Below are positions 466-29,907 of a DNA stretch of 38,410 bases, in pieces; within the stretch, counting starts at the first letter, position 1, and the number at the start of each line of letters is the position of its first letter. The notes beneath the pieces were generated by a model. That model ran no database searches. It saw nothing but the letters and a program-made list of their open reading frames with translations, and was not told the DNA's origin. The position numbers and the translations under genes are program-made. The stretch comes from a candidate division WOR-3 bacterium (GTDB lineage Bacteria > Hydrothermota > Tepidihabitantia > Tepidihabitantales > Tepidihabitantaceae). The stretch is taken from assembly GCA_016867815.1 (NCBI GenBank), contig VGIR01000022.1, positions 1-38,410 of the forward strand, in the 5' to 3' direction.

Positions 466-500
466 TACTGCAGAAGTGGTCGCGTGTAGAGCTATTGCTT

Positions 501-528
501 GAAGAACGATGAACGAAGAACGACTCCC
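501..528. repeat. 7-nt-unit array abutting a start codon
   Basis: Four heptamers (GAAGAAC, GATGAAC, GAAGAAC, GACTCCC) run straight into the ATG at 529. A TTG-initiated reading from 499 would translate this array into nine extra residues, but the ATG is the likelier start. Confidence 0.7.
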
Positions 529-3500
529 ATGAGACGCGGTGAAGTGATTGAATGCAGGCTGCGGGCGCTGGTAGGAGAGCGCGTGGCCTGGGACTTGCTC
601 GCGCTGGCGGTGTTCACTCTTGCCATGACCGGGGCGCTGCTCATGTTGGTTGTGAGTCTGTTCTGGAGCGGGTGGGTGATGGCGGCGCTGGCTGTTCCTG
701 TCGGTCTGTTGGTGAGGCGGCTGGTGGCAGAGAACCGGTTCTGGAACGTGGCAAGGCTGGTGGAGGAGAGGTTTTCGGAGGTGAGGGGGAAGCTGGTTGC
801 GGGGATGCAGCTCGCCAGATGGGGGCGGCAGGAGTTTAGAGCCCAGAGTCCAGAGTCCAGAATCCAGAATGCGAAGGTGCTCGGCAGGGAAGGGTACTCG
901 GAGGAGATGATTGAGGCCGCGGTGGCAGATGTGGAGAAGGTGTTCGCGCCGCTGCCGCTGGGGCAGTTTGTGGACCGGCGGCGGGCGTTGTGGGCCGGAG
1001 TGGCACTCGTGGCCATGGCCGTGTGCATGGCGGCGCTGTTCCGGGCGGCGCCGGCGCGGATGCGTGTCGGTCTCAGCAATGCCTTCAGCTCCGGTGCGGA
1101 GGGCATCACGTTTGAAGTCTCGCCCGGCGATACCGCGGTAATGCCGGGCGGGAGTGTTGTACTGAGGGCGCGGGTGTTCCCGGCAGGCGTGTTCAGAGAG
1201 GTGCGTCTCATTCGCTCGGGCAGTGAAAGCGACACAAGAGACCTTAGAGTCGAAAGCGACACATGCCGCGTGGTTCTGGCTGCGGGGCACGGCTTCGCGT
1301 ATCGGTTCCGCGTTCTCAGCCGGTCGTCAGACCCGCACCGAGTACGCGTGCTTGAGCCGCTCACTCTTGAGCGGCTGGTCTTCACTCTTCGTCCGCCGGC
1401 TTATTCGGGGCTGCAGGAAACGCGGATGTCAGGGGTGGGGAGAGGTGCGGAGGTCAGCGGGCTGAAGGGAACCGTGGTTGGTATCGAGGGCGAAGCGAAC
1501 CGGCCGGCGGCCGCTGGTCGTCTCCGGCTGGGTGACGATACGATTGCGGTCACGGTCGACGCGCGGGATTCGAGCCTGTTCCGAGCCGAGTTCACCATCA
1601 GGGGCGATGTGGCGGGCGCCATAGAGCTGGCCGATTTCGACTACGGTGTATTGCAGCCGGCAGCGGAGGTGCGGGTGAGAGCCATTGCCGACGAGCCGCC
1701 ATTCGTCAAGCTCTTCGCGCCGGGACGTGACATCGACCTGCCGGTCTCGATGCAGGTGCTGCTCGGCATCAACAGCCTGGATGACTTCGGACTCGGCGAC
1801 CTGGTGCTGCACTATGGCAAGGAGCTTGGGAGGGGTGAGGAGGGAGGAGAGTCAAGAGTCCAGAATCCAGAATCCAGAGTCCAGAGTTTGGTCCTGAAGC
1901 GGTTGGCGGGGAGGCGTGAGGACACGACGCTCTACGCATGGGATTTGTCCGACGCGGGGCTGCTGCCCGGCGAGGCGATGTGGTACTACGTGTCGGTGAC
2001 CGACAATGATGGGGTTTCCGGGTCCAAGGTCAGCCGCACCGAGGTGTTCCAGGTTCGCTTCCCGACCATGACCGAGATATACAACGCGGCGGTGCGGCAG
2101 ACCGAGCGGACGGAGTCCGAACTGGGGCCGATGCAGTCGGAGCAGGCCCAGCTGGGCGAGGAGTTGAGCCGGCTTTCGGACGAAATGAAGAAGAGCCGCG
2201 AGCTTTCGTGGGAGGAGAAGCAGGCGCTGGAGAAGGTACTCGGCGGCCAGGAAGGGCTGATGCAGCAGGTGTCGGACCTGAAGCAGGAAGTCTCGGACAT
2301 GATGAAGGAGCTCTCGCAGGGGATGACCCTTGACCAGCAGACGATGGAACGGATGAACCAGCTCCAGCAGCTCCTCTCCGAACTTCTGCCCCGGGAGCTG
2401 CAGCAGTCGCTGGCACAACTGCGGGACAAGCTGGAGCAGCAGTCGCCGGACGTGAAGCGGGCGCTGGAGAAGTTCGAACTCGACCAGGAGAAGATGAAGG
2501 AGGCGATTGACCGGGCCCTGGAGCTGCTCAAGAAGATAATGGAGGAGCAGCGGCTCGAGGCCCTGGCCAAGAAGTCGGAGGAGCTGGCCAGGGCGCAAGA
2601 GGACTTGACCGACAGGCTGGGCAAGGAGCCGGGTGAGAGTTCAGCGCAGATGGAGCAGAATCTGAAGGAGGCACTCGACAGCCTGCAGCAGGAGATGAAG
2701 GACCTTGCCGACTCGATGTCGGAGAAGGAGATCGGCGACTCGCTGTCCGATCTGGCGGAGCAGGCCGAGCAGGACAAGCTGTCCGAGACGGCGCAGGAGC
2801 TCGCGAACCAGATGCGGCAGGGCAGCCCCGGGCAGGCGAAGCCGAAGAGCGGCAAGCTCGGACAGAGTCTGCGGAAGATGAGCCAGTCGCTCAACTCGTT
2901 GAGCCGGAAGTTGAAGTCGAAGCGGTCGTCAGAGGTAGCGCAGGAACTCGGCAACGCGGCCCGGGACCTGTTGATGGTCTCGCACGAGCAGGAGAAGCTG
3001 GAGCAGGCGACGATGGGAATGGCGGACCTGGCCCAGAACGCAGCGCAGGAGATGGGTTTGCAGGCAGCCACGCGAATCGTGGCTGAAAGCGTGGCGAGTC
3101 TCAGTTCGCGCAGCCTGAGCGTTGACCCCAGGCTGGGGCAGGAACTGGCCAAGACGATGGCCATGATGGAGCAGGCCGCACAGGGAATGGTGGAGAACCG
3201 GTCGGAGATTGCGCAGCCGAGCATGGCGCAGGCCCGGCAGGGCCTCAACCAGACAGTCGAGGCGCTGCTACGGGCGATGGCGCAGGCACAGCAGGGCGGC
3301 GGAATGTCGAGCGGCATGGAAGGCCTGATGCAGCAGTTATCGCAGATGACCGGCGAGCAGATGGGCATCAACGCCGGGATGTCCGGGTTCCCGATTCCGA
3401 TGCCCGGCGGCCTCAGCGGGGAACAGATGGCGGCGTTGAGCCGGGTTCTCGGCAAGCAGCGGGCGCTGCGTGAGCAGCTTCAGCAGTTGCTGCAGGAGCT

Positions 3501-3858
3501 GGGCGGAACCCAGCCGGGACTCACGTCCAGCCTGGAGGGACTGCTGGACGAGATGAAAGCCGTGGAAAGAGACCTTTCAGAACTGAACGTCAGCCGCGAG
3601 CTGATTGAGCGACAGGAGAGCATCCTCTCGCATCTGCTCGATGCCGAGCGCAGCATACGTCAGCAGGGATTCAAGGAGGAGCGGCAGAGTGAATCGGGGA
3701 AGGAGTTCGAGCTGCAGCCGCGGCCGCGCCTGCCCGAGGACAAGGGTGAGCGGAACCGGCTGTTGCGCGAGGAGTTGATGCGCGCGCTCAAGCAGGGCTA
3801 TCCGGCGGAGTACGAGCAGATGATACGCGAGTACTTTCAGAGGCTGCTCAGCGAGTAG
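529..3858 (+). CDS. DUF4175-like membrane protein with long coiled coil
   Basis: About 1109 residues from ATG 529. An in-frame TTG at 499 is possible, but its extra codons are a heptamer array. Two membrane segments lie near residues 23-45 and 48-64 and a third near 153-172. A beta-rich extracytoplasmic region follows to about 510. From there almost to the end runs a Glu/Gln/Leu-rich helical coiled coil, with a Met/Gly-rich stretch near 920-970. The three N-terminal membrane helices plus a long coiled coil match the DUF4175 class, whose role is not established. A structural or envelope-complex role is only a guess. Two in-frame heptamer arrays (834-875 and 1837-1885) add low-complexity Gln/Pro/Glu/Ser/Arg insertions. 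The TPR gene begins 3 nt after the stop, so the two are probably one operon. Confidence 0.7.
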   Translation: MRRGEVIECRLRALVGERVAWDLLALAVFTLAMTGALLMLVVSLFWSGWVMAALAVPVGLLVRRLVAENRFWNVARLVEERFSEVRGKLVAGMQLARWGRQEFRAQSPESRIQNAKVLGREGYSEEMIEAAVADVEKVFAPLPLGQFVDRRRALWAGVALVAMAVCMAALFRAAPARMRVGLSNAFSSGAEGITFEVSPGDTAVMPGGSVVLRARVFPAGVFREVRLIRSGSESDTRDLRVESDTCRVVLAAGHGFAYRFRVLSRSSDPHRVRVLEPLTLERLVFTLRPPAYSGLQETRMSGVGRGAEVSGLKGTVVGIEGEANRPAAAGRLRLGDDTIAVTVDARDSSLFRAEFTIRGDVAGAIELADFDYGVLQPAAEVRVRAIADEPPFVKLFAPGRDIDLPVSMQVLLGINSLDDFGLGDLVLHYGKELGRGEEGGESRVQNPESRVQSLVLKRLAGRREDTTLYAWDLSDAGLLPGEAMWYYVSVTDNDGVSGSKVSRTEVFQVRFPTMTEIYNAAVRQTERTESELGPMQSEQAQLGEELSRLSDEMKKSRELSWEEKQALEKVLGGQEGLMQQVSDLKQEVSDMMKELSQGMTLDQQTMERMNQLQQLLSELLPRELQQSLAQLRDKLEQQSPDVKRALEKFELDQEKMKEAIDRALELLKKIMEEQRLEALAKKSEELARAQEDLTDRLGKEPGESSAQMEQNLKEALDSLQQEMKDLADSMSEKEIGDSLSDLAEQAEQDKLSETAQELANQMRQGSPGQAKPKSGKLGQSLRKMSQSLNSLSRKLKSKRSSEVAQELGNAARDLLMVSHEQEKLEQATMGMADLAQNAAQEMGLQAATRIVAESVASLSSRSLSVDPRLGQELAKTMAMMEQAAQGMVENRSEIAQPSMAQARQGLNQTVEALLRAMAQAQQGGGMSSGMEGLMQQLSQMTGEQMGINAGMSGFPIPMPGGLSGEQMAALSRVLGKQRALREQLQQLLQELGGTQPGLTSSLEGLLDEMKAVERDLSELNVSRELIERQESILSHLLDAERSIRQQGFKEERQSESGKEFELQPRPRLPEDKGERNRLLREELMRALKQGYPAEYEQMIREYFQRLLSE
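834..875. repeat. In-frame 7-nt array inside the DUF4175-like gene
   Basis: Six heptamers: GTTTAGA, GCCCAGA, GTCCAGA (twice), ATCCAGA, ATGCGAA. At 42 nt the array keeps the frame and encodes roughly FRAQSPESRIQNAK between the second and third membrane segments. Confidence 0.85.
1837..1885. repeat. In-frame 7-nt array inside the DUF4175-like gene
   Basis: Seven heptamers run in phase: GAGGAGG, GAGGAGA, GTCAAGA, GTCCAGA, ATCCAGA, ATCCAGA, GTCCAGA. They encode a Glu/Ser/Arg/Val/Gln insertion (ESRVQNPESRVQ) in the extracytoplasmic beta-rich region. The units match those at 834-875. Confidence 0.85.
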
Positions 3859-25849: not shown

Positions 25850-25874
25850 GCCGCCCCGGGCCACCTGGGGGACT

Positions 25875-25950
25875 CACCACGAAGGCGCAGAGACACAAAG
25901 AGGGTGAGGACAGAAGTCAGCTCTGTCTGCTTGGCGTTCTTGGCGGTTCC
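25875..25950. repeat. 9-nt-unit repeats between divergent genes
   Basis: CACGAAGGC-GCAGAGACA-CAAAGAGGG near the left end and CTTGGCGTT-CTTGGCGGT at 25930-25947. These match the unit family at 25082-25108. Confidence 0.5.
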
Positions 25951-25994: not shown

Positions 25995-25999
25995 GAACC

Positions 26000-26692
26000 G
26001 TGCTCGGCAGGTTCTTGTTCCGCTGGCGCGGAGTCATTGGTGTGCTCGCCTTCGGCGTGGTGTTCTGGCTGGCGAGGCCGACGGTCGGGTCGTGTCTCCT
26101 CGGTCTTCCGTTCCTGCTGGTCGGACTGGCGGTCAGGTTCTGGGCGTCGGGCTACATCGGCATAGAGGGACGGGTGAGGGAGATTGGCATGCGGAGTGAG
26201 AAGAGAGGAGCGAGGATGGAGGAGGGAGGAGCGCAGCGCAGCAGAATCGTGACTGGACCCTATCGAATCCTCAGGCATCCATTGTACATCGGCAACTTCC
26301 TGCTCGTTGCGGGAATGCTCCTGGCTCTACACCCGCCGATCTGGCTGAGTGCGGTTGTGATGGTTGGGTTCATTGCCGAGTACGCGGCGATTGTCGCAGC
26401 AGAGGAAGCGTATCTAGCCGGGCGCGGAGGCAATGCAGATTGCAAAACGCAGAGGGCAGAAGTGGCGGTCAGAGGGAGTGGAGAGTCGGGAGTGGGGAGT
26501 GGCGAGATCGACCGAAGTCAGAAGTCAGAATCCAGAAGGCAGAAGGCAGAAGTGCGAACAGCGAACGGCGAACGGCGAGAGGCGATGGACGAGTCGTTTG
26601 TGATGAGCCGGGCTCTGGTTGAGTGGCGGACGTGGGTGGTGACGGGAGCGGGCTGGGGGCTGGCGATTGCCAGAGCAGTCGTAGTGGACTAG
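26000..26692 (+). CDS. Isoprenylcysteine methyltransferase-like membrane protein
   Basis: 230 residues from GTG 26000. Membrane helices lie near 11-25, 30-50 and 95-135. The family signature GPYRILRHPLYIGNFLLVAG (about 86-105) and a following Glu-Glu pair (AAEEAYLAGR, near 135) are those of ICMT/PEMT-type integral methyltransferases, which methylate lipids or prenylated substrates with S-adenosylmethionine. Two in-frame heptamer arrays interrupt it. The first is residues about 65-81, between helices. The second is residues about 145-198, exactly where the family normally has its conserved C-terminal EExL/RYxxY region; here that region is replaced by Glu/Arg/Ser/Lys-rich sequence. Whether the enzyme is active is doubtful. 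Confidence 0.7.
   Translation: MLGRFLFRWRGVIGVLAFGVVFWLARPTVGSCLLGLPFLLVGLAVRFWASGYIGIEGRVREIGMRSEKRGARMEEGGAQRSRIVTGPYRILRHPLYIGNFLLVAGMLLALHPPIWLSAVVMVGFIAEYAAIVAAEEAYLAGRGGNADCKTQRAEVAVRGSGESGVGSGEIDRSQKSESRRQKAEVRTANGERREAMDESFVMSRALVEWRTWVVTGAGWGLAIARAVVVD
26194..26242. repeat. In-frame 7-nt array in the methyltransferase-like gene
   Basis: Seven heptamers: GAGTGAG, AAGAGAG, GAGCGAG, GATGGAG, GAGGGAG, GAGCGCA, GCGCAGC. Confidence 0.8.
26433..26593. repeat. Long in-frame 7-nt array, 23 units
   Basis: Twenty-three heptamers stay in phase for 161 nt, most ending in AGA, GAA or GAG. The middle reads GTCAGAA, GTCAGAA, TCCAGAA, GGCAGAA, GGCAGAA, GTGCGAA, CAGCGAA, CGGCGAA. It is translated as part of the methyltransferase-like protein. 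Confidence 0.85.
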
Positions 26693-26696
26693 GCTT

Positions 26697-26738
26697 GGGA
26701 CACGATCCGAAATCCCGGGAGGATTTCGGTCATGTCCC
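26697..26738. terminator. Bidirectional hairpin between convergent genes
   Basis: Outer stem GGGACA / TGTCCC (26697-26702, 26733-26738) and a 9-bp inner stem CCGAAATCC / GGATTTCGG (26707-26715, 26721-26729) with loop CGGGA. It serves both the methyltransferase-like gene and the GWxTD gene. Confidence 0.8.
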
Positions 26739-26742
26739 TTCG

Positions 26743-28155
26743 CTAGCGGCGGGGGAGGATTTCAAACTCGGCGGTTGCGGAAGCGGTGTGTGAATCATCG
26801 GGTGACGCCAGCATATCCGTGACGCGGCTGATGAGCAGGTACGGGCCAGGCTTCAGGTCCATGGTGTGGACACGTTCGACCGCAACTCCGGTTGAACCTA
26901 TCCCGGTGATGTAGCGCTGAGGCGCAGGCAGCACTGCCTTCTCGCGCGTCTCCCGTTGTACCAGTTCATAGTTGACCTGTGCGTTGTGGTTCCCGGTCGA
27001 GTCCTGGCCGAGATGGTAGATCTCGTACAGCACGTAGAACGATTGGCCGCTGCGGACGCGGGAGGCGACAAGCGGGACGACGCGCGTCCAGTCGAGGCGG
27101 TTGAACTGGGAGCTCTGGCTCGTGGAGTCAACCAGTGAGTAGAATAGAACATCGGACACCGGTTGGTTGCGACGCGCATAGTCAATCAGGTTCAGGTCCT
27201 GCACCTTCTTTGATGCCGCCTGGCCGTCGGCGGTGACGGCAGTGACGCTGAAGGTGTAGATATCAGCCGGAAGATTGAAGACCTCACGGCCGACGGCGAA
27301 GTCGACGGCGGTCGTGTCGGGAGGCATGGAGCAACTAAGCCAGGAAGAACTGTGCGCGGGCGTACCCTTGGCTCGCGGCACCAGGTCGATTGCCACGTTG
27401 ATAAGTGGCTGCGATTGGGGCTGGAACTCGGCCAGAATGGTCCGCAAGGGAATGCCGAACGCAAGTTCGACCTCGACTGAGTCTCCATGCTGACTCAGGC
27501 GGCCCAACGATACCTCAAGCCCTAGCGGCCGAGTAGCGCTTGCGAACTCGGGTGCTGAACGTGCGAACACTGCCGGTTCCAGAGCAGGCATCATGGCGCG
27601 TGGACCATACCTGCTCTCTCCCACGATCTTGAAGGCGGTACCTGTCCGGACAAAGTCGTACTGGCGACCAAGCGAGTCGTATGACCAGATCTCCGCCGGG
27701 TTCACGAAGATGCGACTGGTCTCGGTGTCGATGAATCGGGTCTCGTACTGCTCGCGACGGGCCGGGCCGTGGCGGATGTATGTGCGTACCCGGTCGTCGT
27801 TCAGCAAATCGGTTGCACCGAAGTACATCCGGGCTTGGAGAGCTCGTTGGCGGTAGAAGATGGAGGGAGAAGGGAGGAGAGGGGAGGGAGAAGTAAGGAC
27901 GGAGATCGGCGGGTTCTTCCAGAACCAGTCGAGATAGTCGGCTCGACTCATAGCGCTGCCGGCTGACGCGTACTGCTGTGCGGCGTCAGAAGCGAGTGCC
28001 GCCAGGACGAGGTAGTTGAGTCTCTCTTCGTCGGTGAGAGCGTCGGCAGGGGAGACCTGGCGGACTTGGGAGCAGGAAGAGAGGAAGAGCAGAAGGACTG
28101 CAAGATGCAGAATGCAGGCTGCAGATTGCAGATTGCGAGTCCGCTGGGTTGTCAT
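26743..28155 (-). CDS. GWxTD-domain lipoprotein
   Basis: 470 residues from ATG 28155, 18 nt after the hutU stop. The signal peptide (CILHLAVLLLFLSSC) ends in a lipobox Cys. Residues about 35-175 match the GWxTD domain: LTDEERLNYLVLAALAS, then YLDWFWKNPP, then DRVRTYIRHGPARREQYE and NPAEIWSYDSLGRQYDFV. Beta-rich domains follow, ending ATAEFEILPRR. The family is of unknown function and found in FCB-type bacteria. Two heptamer arrays are in frame. One (28091-28139) encodes residues about 6-22, which is the hydrophobic core of the signal peptide. The other (27858-27906) inserts SVLTSPSPLLPSPSIF after the DWFWKNPP motif. Co-transcription with hutU is probably incidental. Confidence 0.8.
   Translation of the reverse strand: MTTQRTRNLQSAACILHLAVLLLFLSSCSQVRQVSPADALTDEERLNYLVLAALASDAAQQYASAGSAMSRADYLDWFWKNPPISVLTSPSPLLPSPSIFYRQRALQARMYFGATDLLNDDRVRTYIRHGPARREQYETRFIDTETSRIFVNPAEIWSYDSLGRQYDFVRTGTAFKIVGESRYGPRAMMPALEPAVFARSAPEFASATRPLGLEVSLGRLSQHGDSVEVELAFGIPLRTILAEFQPQSQPLINVAIDLVPRAKGTPAHSSSWLSCSMPPDTTAVDFAVGREVFNLPADIYTFSVTAVTADGQAASKKVQDLNLIDYARRNQPVSDVLFYSLVDSTSQSSQFNRLDWTRVVPLVASRVRSGQSFYVLYEIYHLGQDSTGNHNAQVNYELVQRETREKAVLPAPQRYITGIGSTGVAVERVHTMDLKPGPYLLISRVTDMLASPDDSHTASATAEFEILPRR
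27858..27906. repeat. In-frame 7-nt array in the GWxTD gene
   Basis: Seven heptamers: AGATGGA, GGGAGAA, GGGAGGA, GAGGGGA, GGGAGAA, GTAAGGA, CGGAGAT. It is read on the opposite strand as a Ser/Pro/Leu-rich insertion. Confidence 0.8.
28091..28139. repeat. 7-nt array encoding a signal peptide
   Basis: Seven heptamers: AGAAGGA, CTGCAAG, ATGCAGA, ATGCAGG, CTGCAGA, TTGCAGA, TTGCGAG. The minus strand translates them as the signal peptide core of the GWxTD lipoprotein. Confidence 0.8.
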
Positions 28156-28173: not shown

Positions 28174-29907
28174 TCAGATCATCGGTATGTTGACGCCTTT
28201 GGCGCGGGCGAGGGCCTGGGCGTCTTCGTACCCGGCATCGGCGTGGCGGGCAATGCCGGTTCCGGGGTCGTTGACCAGCACTCGCTTCAGTCGCTCGTCC
28301 ATGTCCGGCGTGCCGTCGCAGACGATGACCTGGCCGGCGTGGATTGAGTAGCCGATGCCAACCCCGCCGCCGTGGTGGATGGAAACCCATGACGCGCCCG
28401 AGGCCACGTTCAGCATGGCGTTGAGCAGGGGCCAGTCGGCAATCGCGTCCGAGCCGTCCTTCATGGCTTCCGTTTCGCGGTTGGGCGACGCCACCGAGCC
28501 GGTGTCGAGGTGGTCGCGGCCGATGACTATGGGTGCACTGATACGTCCCTCGCGTACGGCCAGGTTGAATGCGAGGCCGGCCTTGTCACGTTCGCCGTAG
28601 CCGAGCCAGCAGATCCGACTGGGCAGGCCCTGGAATGGTATCTCGGCGCCGGCCCTCCTGATCCAGTTGACGAGCGCGGTGTTGTCCGGGAAGAGGTCGC
28701 AGATGATCCTGTCGGTCTCGGCAATGTCCTGCGGGTCGCCGGACAAAGCAGCCCAGCGGAACGGACCCTTTCCCTGGCAGAACAGGGGCCGAATGTAGGC
28801 GGGGACGAAGCCGGGGTATCTCCAGGCAGAGAGTGGTCGAGTGGTCGAGTGGTCCAGTGGTCTAGTGGCGGAGGTGCGGATTTCGGATTCGGGGAGGAAG
28901 CCACCTTCGATTGCCTTGCCGCGCAGGTTGTTGCCGTAGTCGAATGTTACAGCGCCCATCGACTGGAGTTTGAGCATCAGGCGGACGTGCTCGGCCATGG
29001 TGCGGAAGGATGCCTGCTTGTACGCTGCCGGGTCCGCGTTTCGCAGCTCGACGGCCTTGTCGAAGGAGATGCCGCTGGGGAAGTAGCCTCTCAGTTCGTC
29101 ATGCGCCGAGGTCTGGTCGGTGAGCAGGTCGGGAATGACCTTGCGCTCGGCCATGCGCGCGAGCAGGTCCACGATGTTCCCGGTCCAGGCGATACTGGTT
29201 GCTTGTCGGTGGGACTTGGCGTCAACGGCGCGGTCAATCGCCTTGTCGAGGTCAAGGATGTTCTCGTCGAGGTAGCGAGGCTTCTTACTGGCCAGTCGCC
29301 GGGCAACACGGGTTGGGTCGACCTCGGCTCCGAGATAGGTCGCGCCGGCCATGGTTGCGGCCAGCGGTTGGGCCCCGCTCATGCCGCCCAGCCCTCCGGA
29401 TACGACCAGTCGGCCGGCAAGGTCCGGTGTCCCGAAGTGCTTCCTGCCAGCGGCGACGAACGTCTCGTGCGTGCCCTGCAGAATCCCCTGCGTACCGATG
29501 TAGATCCAGGAACCGGCGGTCATCTGGCCGTACATGATGAGCCCCGCTGCTTCTAGTTCATCGAAGTAGGGCTTGGTGGCCCAGTGCGGGACCAGGTTGG
29601 AGTTGGCAATCAGCACGCGCGGGGCATGCGGCCAGGTACGGAACACTGCAACCGGCTTGCCTGACTGGACCAGCAGGGTTTCGTCATTCTCAAGCGCCTT
29701 GAGGGTGCGGACGATGACGTGGAAGCAGTCCCAATTGCGGGCGGCCCGACCGGTGCCGCCGTAGACGATAAGCTGTTCCGGCTTCTCGGCGACCTCCGGG
29801 TCGAGGTTGTTCATGAGCATCCGCAGGGCTGCTTCCTGGTGCCAGCCTTTGCAGTTGAGGGCAGACCCACGGGGAGCTCTGATTGGTGTGGAATCTGGGC
29901 GGTTCAT
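28174..29907 (-). CDS. hutU: Urocanate hydratase
   Basis: 577 residues from ATG 29907, with AGGAG about 10 nt upstream. It catalyses hydration of urocanate to 4-imidazolone-5-propanoate in histidine degradation, using NAD+ as an electrophile, in the cytosol. Family blocks are intact: [31 protein letters not shown], the nucleotide loop [24 protein letters not shown] with the conserved active-site Cys, and [19 protein letters not shown]. It is about 20 residues longer than usual because an 8-nt array (28832-28871) inserts [13 protein letters not shown]-type residues near 345-360, before [20 protein letters not shown]. No hutH, hutI or hutG is in the window. It shares a very tight divergent promoter region with bamA. 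Confidence 0.95.
28832..28871. repeat. In-frame 8-nt array inside hutU
   Basis: Octamers AGTGGTCG, AGTGGTCG, AGTGGTCC, AGTGGTCT, AGTGGCGG. On the coding (minus) strand three units give the 8-residue repeat DHSTTRPL. It is the same family as the non-coding arrays at 281 and 375. Confidence 0.85.

Follow-up and report, generated by a model that had tools for sequence, protein, structure and literature searches.

Did a tandem repeat whose unit is not a multiple of three replace an export signal or create one? The question is raised by the start of a gene in the window analysed here, a stretch of 38,410 nucleotides (contig VGIR01000022.1, assembly GCA_016867815.1) from the 3.37-Mb draft genome of a candidate division WOR-3 bacterium, which we call G000. 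A first-pass annotation proposed that seven 7-nt units form precisely the hydrophobic core of the signal peptide of a GWxTD lipoprotein, and that a mobile-like repeat had either replaced or created the export signal.

The array in the lipoprotein gene

The location of the array and the residues given for it are correct: on the minus strand, 28091-28139 corresponds to codons 6 to 22 of a 470-aa open reading frame (ORF, 26743-28155), whose N-terminus is MTTQRTRNLQSAACILHLAVLLLFLSSC, followed by SQVRQ. A non-triplet repeat is present in the region coding for the putative signal peptide. The array is real and shorter than claimed. Compared with ATGCAGA, its seven 7-mers match at 3, 4, 7, 6, 6, 6, and 3 positions, and Tandem Repeats Finder (TRF) reports 4.6 copies at 28105-28136 (84%, score 36), so the count of seven falls to about 4.6 good units. 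These clear units encode approximately RNLQSAACILH. The 12 most hydrophobic residues of the signal, CILHLAVLLLFL, lie mostly outside them; the array spans the n-region and the first half of the h-region, and to call it precisely the hydrophobic core was too strong. In G000, where the array is degenerate, most of the h-region (LAVLLLFL) is non-array sequence. Compared with themselves at a lag of 7 nt, the 28 codons up to and including the lipobox Cys reach 17 of 21 matches, and none of 2,000 codon shuffles reached the observed score, either in G000 or in the related genomes G002, G003, and G004. The window as a whole holds six lag-7 tracts, compared with none in each of 40 order-4 Markov shuffles. 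The features are collected in the table. As for the name GWxTD, curated models do not confirm it: the 470-aa protein has no Pfam match at an E value of 1e-3 and none in NCBIfam at 1, and no GWxTD model in Pfam matched any of 22 aligned family members at 1, though these libraries may hold no such model.

Features of the window and their coordinates
Feature	Position	Strand	Remark
Heptamer array, unit CAATCTG/CATTCTG on the coding strand	28091..28139; clear core 28105-28136	-	Unit matches, TRF
Gene for a 470-aa putative lipoprotein, signal MTTQRTRNLQSAACILHLAVLLLFLSSC	26743..28155	-	Without Pfam or NCBIfam family
Second repeat in the lipoprotein gene (LTSPSPLLPSPS)	27862..27893	-	Site of 7-nt arrays with other units in G003, G004, and G005
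8-nt array GACCACTN inside urocanate hydratase	28828..28870	-	Array exactly here in all six genus genomes, four kinds of unit
Urocanate hydratase gene (hutU), host of the 8-nt array	28174..29907	-	Lies shortly upstream of the lipoprotein gene
7-nt array in a PEMT/ICMT-like methyltransferase ORF (25997-26689)	26202..26233	+	
Pair of neighbouring 7-nt arrays, the first GGGAGTG, the second CAGAAGT grading into GCGAACG; same methyltransferase ORF	26474..26588	+	
7-nt array AGAGTCC in ORF 499-3858 (AQSPESRIQ)	832..875	+	
7-nt array AGAGTCC in ORF 499-3858 (SRVQNPESRVQ)	1846..1891	+	

We found an orthologue of the lipoprotein in 38 of 61 genomes. The genus of G000 is represented by six genomes (G000 to G005), and the site is readable in five of these, the contig of G001 ending inside the gene. 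Three carry a CAATCTG/CATTCTG array: beside G000, G002 has CATTCTG units (PHSAFWILTSAFCTF), and G004 has a longer array of both units at the same point (LQSAICILQSAFCIL). The signal of G003 is built on an unrelated heptamer, GGCTTGT/GCTTGAG (VACGLRLVAPRLCLCLSLLLGAC), and that of G005 has no array. Next to the 17 of 21 in G000, the lag-7 self-match is 18 in G002, 18 in G003, 19 in G004, and 13 in G005. All four array-bearing orthologues are in frame. In G003, the codons that follow the upstream stop and precede the mature protein include no ATG; possible starts are GTG or TTG only, in or adjoining the array-like stretch, which may itself supply the start codon.

Ten orthologues from other genera were fetched and nine counted, G010 (L022) being omitted for an unreadable N-terminus. 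All nine signals are array-free, with a best lag-7 self-match of 7 to 11 of 21, and their N-termini are ordinary hydrophobic segments, by our own reading with a Cys at the lipobox position in eight of the nine. Since signals in other genera lack arrays, the family would have had an export signal before the arrays came. The comparison shows that arrays replaced or extended an older, array-free putative signal and did not create it, which leaves the first half of "replaced or created" standing. The annotation had suggested looking in close relatives for a different signal at this point, and this is what G003, G005, and the other genera have. None of the orthologues compared showed what it named as counterevidence, an unchanged signal sequence lacking the 7-nt periodicity.

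Arrays in other genes

The same array pattern is found at the putative export signal of a second, unlinked exported protein. P0003 is a protein of 986 aa with PD40 repeats, encoded on a contig other than that of the lipoprotein. Its N-terminal hydrophobic segment holds an 8-nt array, CTATCCCT, in G000 and G003; the G002 orthologue has a 7-nt array, CTTTGTC, in the same segment, and that of G005 encodes a related peptide that is below threshold. G004 has no array there, nor do those N-terminal stretches that were read in other genera, G018 being left out because it was unaligned in the region or represented by the wrong ORF. The screen for arrays near ORF starts gave 38 rows in which true and false starts are mixed, and orthologues were compared for the lipoprotein and P0003 only. 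An apparent N-terminal array at L040 was dropped, since the longest ORF there looked antisense when judged by eye. An ORF of 866 codons at L104 has a CAATCTG array (NLQSAICNLQ) inside what we take to be a C-terminal sorting domain (PNPTIVRG...GVYFLREAV...KVIIPR); an array may thus be part of an export-related C-terminus too.

Arrays also lie in frame within unrelated protein genes, those for urocanate hydratase, MutS, a helicase, and the methyltransferase. The hutU array sits between a 10-residue stretch and the conserved WKYPGF segment, and its units are GACCACTN in G000, GACCCCTN in G002, GATCCCTN in G003, and CAATCGN in G001, G004, and G005; 7-nt and 8-nt units thus alternate among sister species. 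Urocanate hydratase of six other genera of the family is about 10 residues shorter at the array site, in a comparison that leaves out G020, G023, and G024 (unaligned in the region or wrong ORF). In mutS (L161-L166, corresponding to G000-G005; G000:C53:8000-13000), arrays whose units differ from species to species occur at several variable segments and leave the conserved blocks of the protein intact. Between sister species, the arrays in MutS, in urocanate hydratase, and in a UvrD-family helicase, all in variable segments, differ in unit and even in unit length.

Twelve of 18 genes compared contain arrays. Where array sites overlap, the units differ in 98 species pairs and agree within one mismatch in 36; the genes come from two chosen stretches plus MutS, and the species pairs are non-independent. 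That sister species have unlike units at a shared site suggests that arrays are exchanged or re-inserted, and not merely drifting. At several sites, orthologues with and without an array are of equal length, which fits a change of sequence in place as well as overwriting.

Two other repeats were seen in the window. A 48-nt near-palindrome at 26691-26738, in the gap where the methyltransferase and lipoprotein genes converge, has copies 90-98% identical at many places in all genus genomes and looks REP-like. A further dispersed element, some 70 nt long, lies at about 25872-25943 and has matches of 81-90% identity at many places in the genus.

A dispersed population of arrays and its units

We then examined how far the arrays extend beyond these genes. 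With a strict tract defined as at least 18 of 21 self-matches, 400 kb of G000 contain 21 tracts at lag 7, 14 at lag 8, and 7 at lag 6, and none at lags 4, 5, 9, 10, and 11; the shuffled control has none at each lag from 2 to 25. With the cutoff of the wider census, 17 of 21, 837 kb contain 88 lag-7 and 43 lag-8 tracts, 131 in total or 15.6 per 100 kb, which would amount to about 525 in the whole genome if the sample is typical. The arrays are 30-80 nt long, with a median of 5.0 units for 7-nt and 4.1 for 8-nt arrays, and they are imperfect, a perfect stretch of three or more units occurring in 17 of the 131. Densities elsewhere in the genus are 22.7 tracts per 100 kb in G002, 22.5 in G003, 18.5 in G004, and 36.6 in G005 (the last from 14 kb only). 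Other genera had no tracts in G006 (40 kb), G007 (64.5 kb), G010 (20 kb), G011 (29 kb), G014 (15 kb), and G016 (17 kb), and none in 20 kb each of G023, G031, G034, and G047; tracts were sparse in G008 (1 in 83.4 kb), G017 (2 in 20 kb), and G019 (1 in 28 kb). G015, from another genus of the same family, has 7- and 8-nt arrays (1 tract in 12 kb; 6 in 41.9 kb, at L171-L173), and the trait is therefore not confined to the genus of G000. Among 147 genomes of the phylum, three exact copies of GACCACTN in tandem occur in seven, the six of the genus plus one match in G014, and three copies of CAAGCCN occur in six, all in the genus. These data show a genome-wide, dispersed population of imperfect 7- and 8-nt arrays, expanded in one WOR-3 genus. 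The word "mobile-like" was apt for the dispersal of the same units across the genome; movement itself would be the process behind it.

By a rough gene caller of our own making, under which about 82% of the DNA is called coding, genes contain 55 of the 131 arrays, another 12 extend across a gene end, and the remaining 64 fall outside. A first impression from the longest ORFs, that most arrays are in genes, was given up at this figure of about 42%. Arrays are depleted in genes and enriched between them, yet common inside; the depletion is expected if most genic insertions are lost.

The 131 tracts in G000 yield 57 7-mer and 23 8-mer consensus units, and the same units recur. Two 7-mer tracts share a consensus unit with a frequency of 0.0188 (maximum of 200 random draws, 0.0039), and two 8-mer tracts with a frequency of 0.0399 (maximum, 0.0044). 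The G000 dictionary also contains 18 of 35 7-mer units of G002, 19 of 38 of G003, and 12 of 26 of G004, where about 6% is expected. Mismatches within tracts gather in one phase of the unit (4494 versus 3653 ± 59 for 7-mers, 968 versus 697 ± 26 for 8-mers). A first entropy measure at this free base was inflated by seeds that leave the base unconstrained, and the phase-mismatch and neighbour tests serve as its control. In four families, neighbouring units agree at the free base no more than in shuffles: GACCACT-N (15 of 56, versus 16.1), CAAGCC-N (16 of 69, versus 17.7), GATCCCT-N (19 of 46, versus 21.0), and GAACCCT-N (9 of 30, versus 9.1). Agreement is above shuffles for CAATCG-N (57 of 99, versus 27), CAATCT-N (51 of 82, versus 33), and CATTCG-N (31 of 58, versus 17), and intermediate for CAGAAG-N (26 of 73, versus 21.0 ± 3.8).

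Neither 7 nor 8 shares a factor with 3, so a unit without stops gives one and the same cyclic peptide, of seven or eight residues, whichever frame of the strand is read; on a given strand, 69% of all heptamers contain no stop. Of 43 genic arrays that are open on both strands, 29 are oriented so that the more hydrophilic of the two peptides is encoded (P = 0.03); their mean hydropathies are -1.01 versus 0.01, and none of the 43 exceeds 0.69. Units at the two signals score 1.63 (CATTCTG), 2.11 (GGCTTGT), 2.10 (CTTTGTC), 0.75 (CTATCCCT), and 0.69 (CAATCTG); CAATCTG is also internal in five called genes of G000. With two signals, this pattern fits a sorting of arrays by context.

Four known systems resemble these arrays in part. 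Dispersed heptamer repeats of cyanobacteria are called STRR. Heptamers of the GGGNATC type in Nostoc and Xanthomonas and TAACTGA in Beggiatoaceae are likewise short direct repeats, genome-wide, patchy among lineages, and with few units per array (PMC4692102, PMC4679880). Those have one or few units and are mostly intergenic, and forward repeats of TAACTGA have stops in all frames; in contrast, the WOR-3 arrays draw on 57 plus 23 units, lie in called genes in 55 of 131 cases, and appear to exchange units at one site between species. TAACTGA is not among the 57 7-mer units of G000, and two copies in tandem occur 0 times in 1.34 Mb of genus sequence; of the other known units, GGGGATC occurs once among the 57 and the remaining GGGNATC/GGGGAYT forms are absent. 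In Neisseria opa, CTCTT pentamers, also tandem units not divisible by 3, lie in the signal-peptide coding region, and their varying copy number turns the gene on and off (PMC3899988, PMC4534519); the WOR-3 array differs in being imperfect and part of a genome-wide dispersed population. Rickettsia palindromic elements are dispersed DNA in frame within many unrelated protein genes as well (PMC10969869), but they are MITE-like palindromes of about 150 bp, not 30-80-nt tandem arrays of 7- or 8-nt units. The fast-evolving tandem repeats of Borgs lie within ORFs and between genes and add peptide repeats to proteins (PMC9879509); they belong to an extrachromosomal element and encode perfect amino acid repeats, whereas the WOR-3 units are 7 or 8 nt, degenerate, and chromosomal as far as draft genomes show. 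The WOR-3 arrays are a variant of dispersed short tandem arrays, and each known relative shares only part of their anatomy. The portions of the literature consulted gave no account of such arrays in WOR-3.

Origin and spread of the arrays

The reading that we prefer, with a probability of about 0.7, is that dispersed arrays enter or overwrite genes, that selection keeps peptides suited to the site, and that an older lipoprotein signal was replaced by hydrophobic units. The pattern suggests that arrays, their units taken from a dictionary that recurs across the genome, insert into or overwrite short DNA segments, both genic and intergenic. Each array would offer one cyclic peptide whatever the frame, and selection would retain those that fit. 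At the start of the lipoprotein gene, units that encode hydrophobic peptides on the coding strand (HSAFCIL, GLWLVAC) would have replaced or extended the older signal, and the array units would now act as the n-region and part of the h-region of a lipoprotein signal that presumably works in export. In loops of other proteins, the arrays presumably retained are on average hydrophilic.

Could the array in the lipoprotein gene be a product of composition, a leucine-rich signal in a GC-rich genome that mimics periodicity? It has only 4 to 5 good units and a TRF score of 36, but the codon shuffles in four species refute this idea, and leucine-rich signals of other genera score just 7 to 11 of 21; we give it almost no credence. 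It is also very improbable that gain and loss of 7-nt units toggles the lipoprotein as a phase-variable contingency locus. The opa repeats are a precedent, and the array does lie in the signal-peptide coding region with a unit not divisible by 3. Yet it is short and imperfect, with units matching at 3 to 7 of 7 positions, all four array-bearing orthologues are in frame, and arrays occur in MutS, hutU, and the helicase, most of them internal.

Local slippage deserves more weight, though we still consider it unlikely. In this account, arrays grew from chance native seeds, and the dictionary reflects only composition and tolerated peptides. Shared variable bases between neighbours in CAATCG, CAATCT, and CATTCG arrays speak for it, as do the 17 tracts with perfect stretches of at least three units. 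Against it stand the reuse of units far above random draws, the alternation of 7-nt and 8-nt units between sister species at hutU, and the empty lags 4, 5, 9, 10, and 11. The free base left unshared by neighbours in four families argues against simple slippage as well, and GACCACT-N, CAAGCC-N, GATCCCT-N, and GAACCCT-N arrays are hard to explain by recent duplication of adjacent units.

If arrays do enter and overwrite genes, as we prefer, they might be dispersed by templated copying between loci, through template switching or short conversion tracts in repair, and not by slippage in place; we hold this tentatively, at somewhat less than even odds. A more speculative proposal, which we doubt, is that an active system of the genus writes arrays from 6- or 7-nt cores, adds to each unit one random base that has no template, and is able to erase an array and write another at the same site. 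If it were true, proteins including export signals and MutS would gain ready-made, frame-independent peptides, sorted by hydrophobicity. One free base in a unit that is fixed elsewhere is a clue to mechanism, and ordinary slippage leaves it unexplained. The origin of new protein segments is a long-standing question, and this genus is a natural experiment: many orthologous sites have different units in one loop or signal, and the entry of frame-independent peptides, their exchange, and their sorting by selection can be counted directly.

Several candidate causes were considered and set aside. Loss of mismatch repair is not supported as the cause: MutS_V is present in 31 of 31 relatives. An insertion splits the MutS_V match in G008 and in each of the six genus genomes, but alignment shows the conserved ATPase blocks unbroken, and arrays are few in G008. 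Reverse transcriptase (RVT_1) is not a requirement, being present in G001-G004 and absent from G000 and G005, nor is Ku-type end joining, found in none of the six genus genomes and in 1 of 31 overall. Y1 (RAYT-type) transposases number 4 to 7 per genus genome and 12 in G015. G007 has 5 but no 7- or 8-nt tracts in its 64.5 kb, so these transposases are not specific to the genus; they may have a role in array spread. A 127-nt sequence at the start of G000:C1 (L038:1-127) is 98-100% identical at the ends of many G000 contigs and is probably a repeat at which the assembly breaks.
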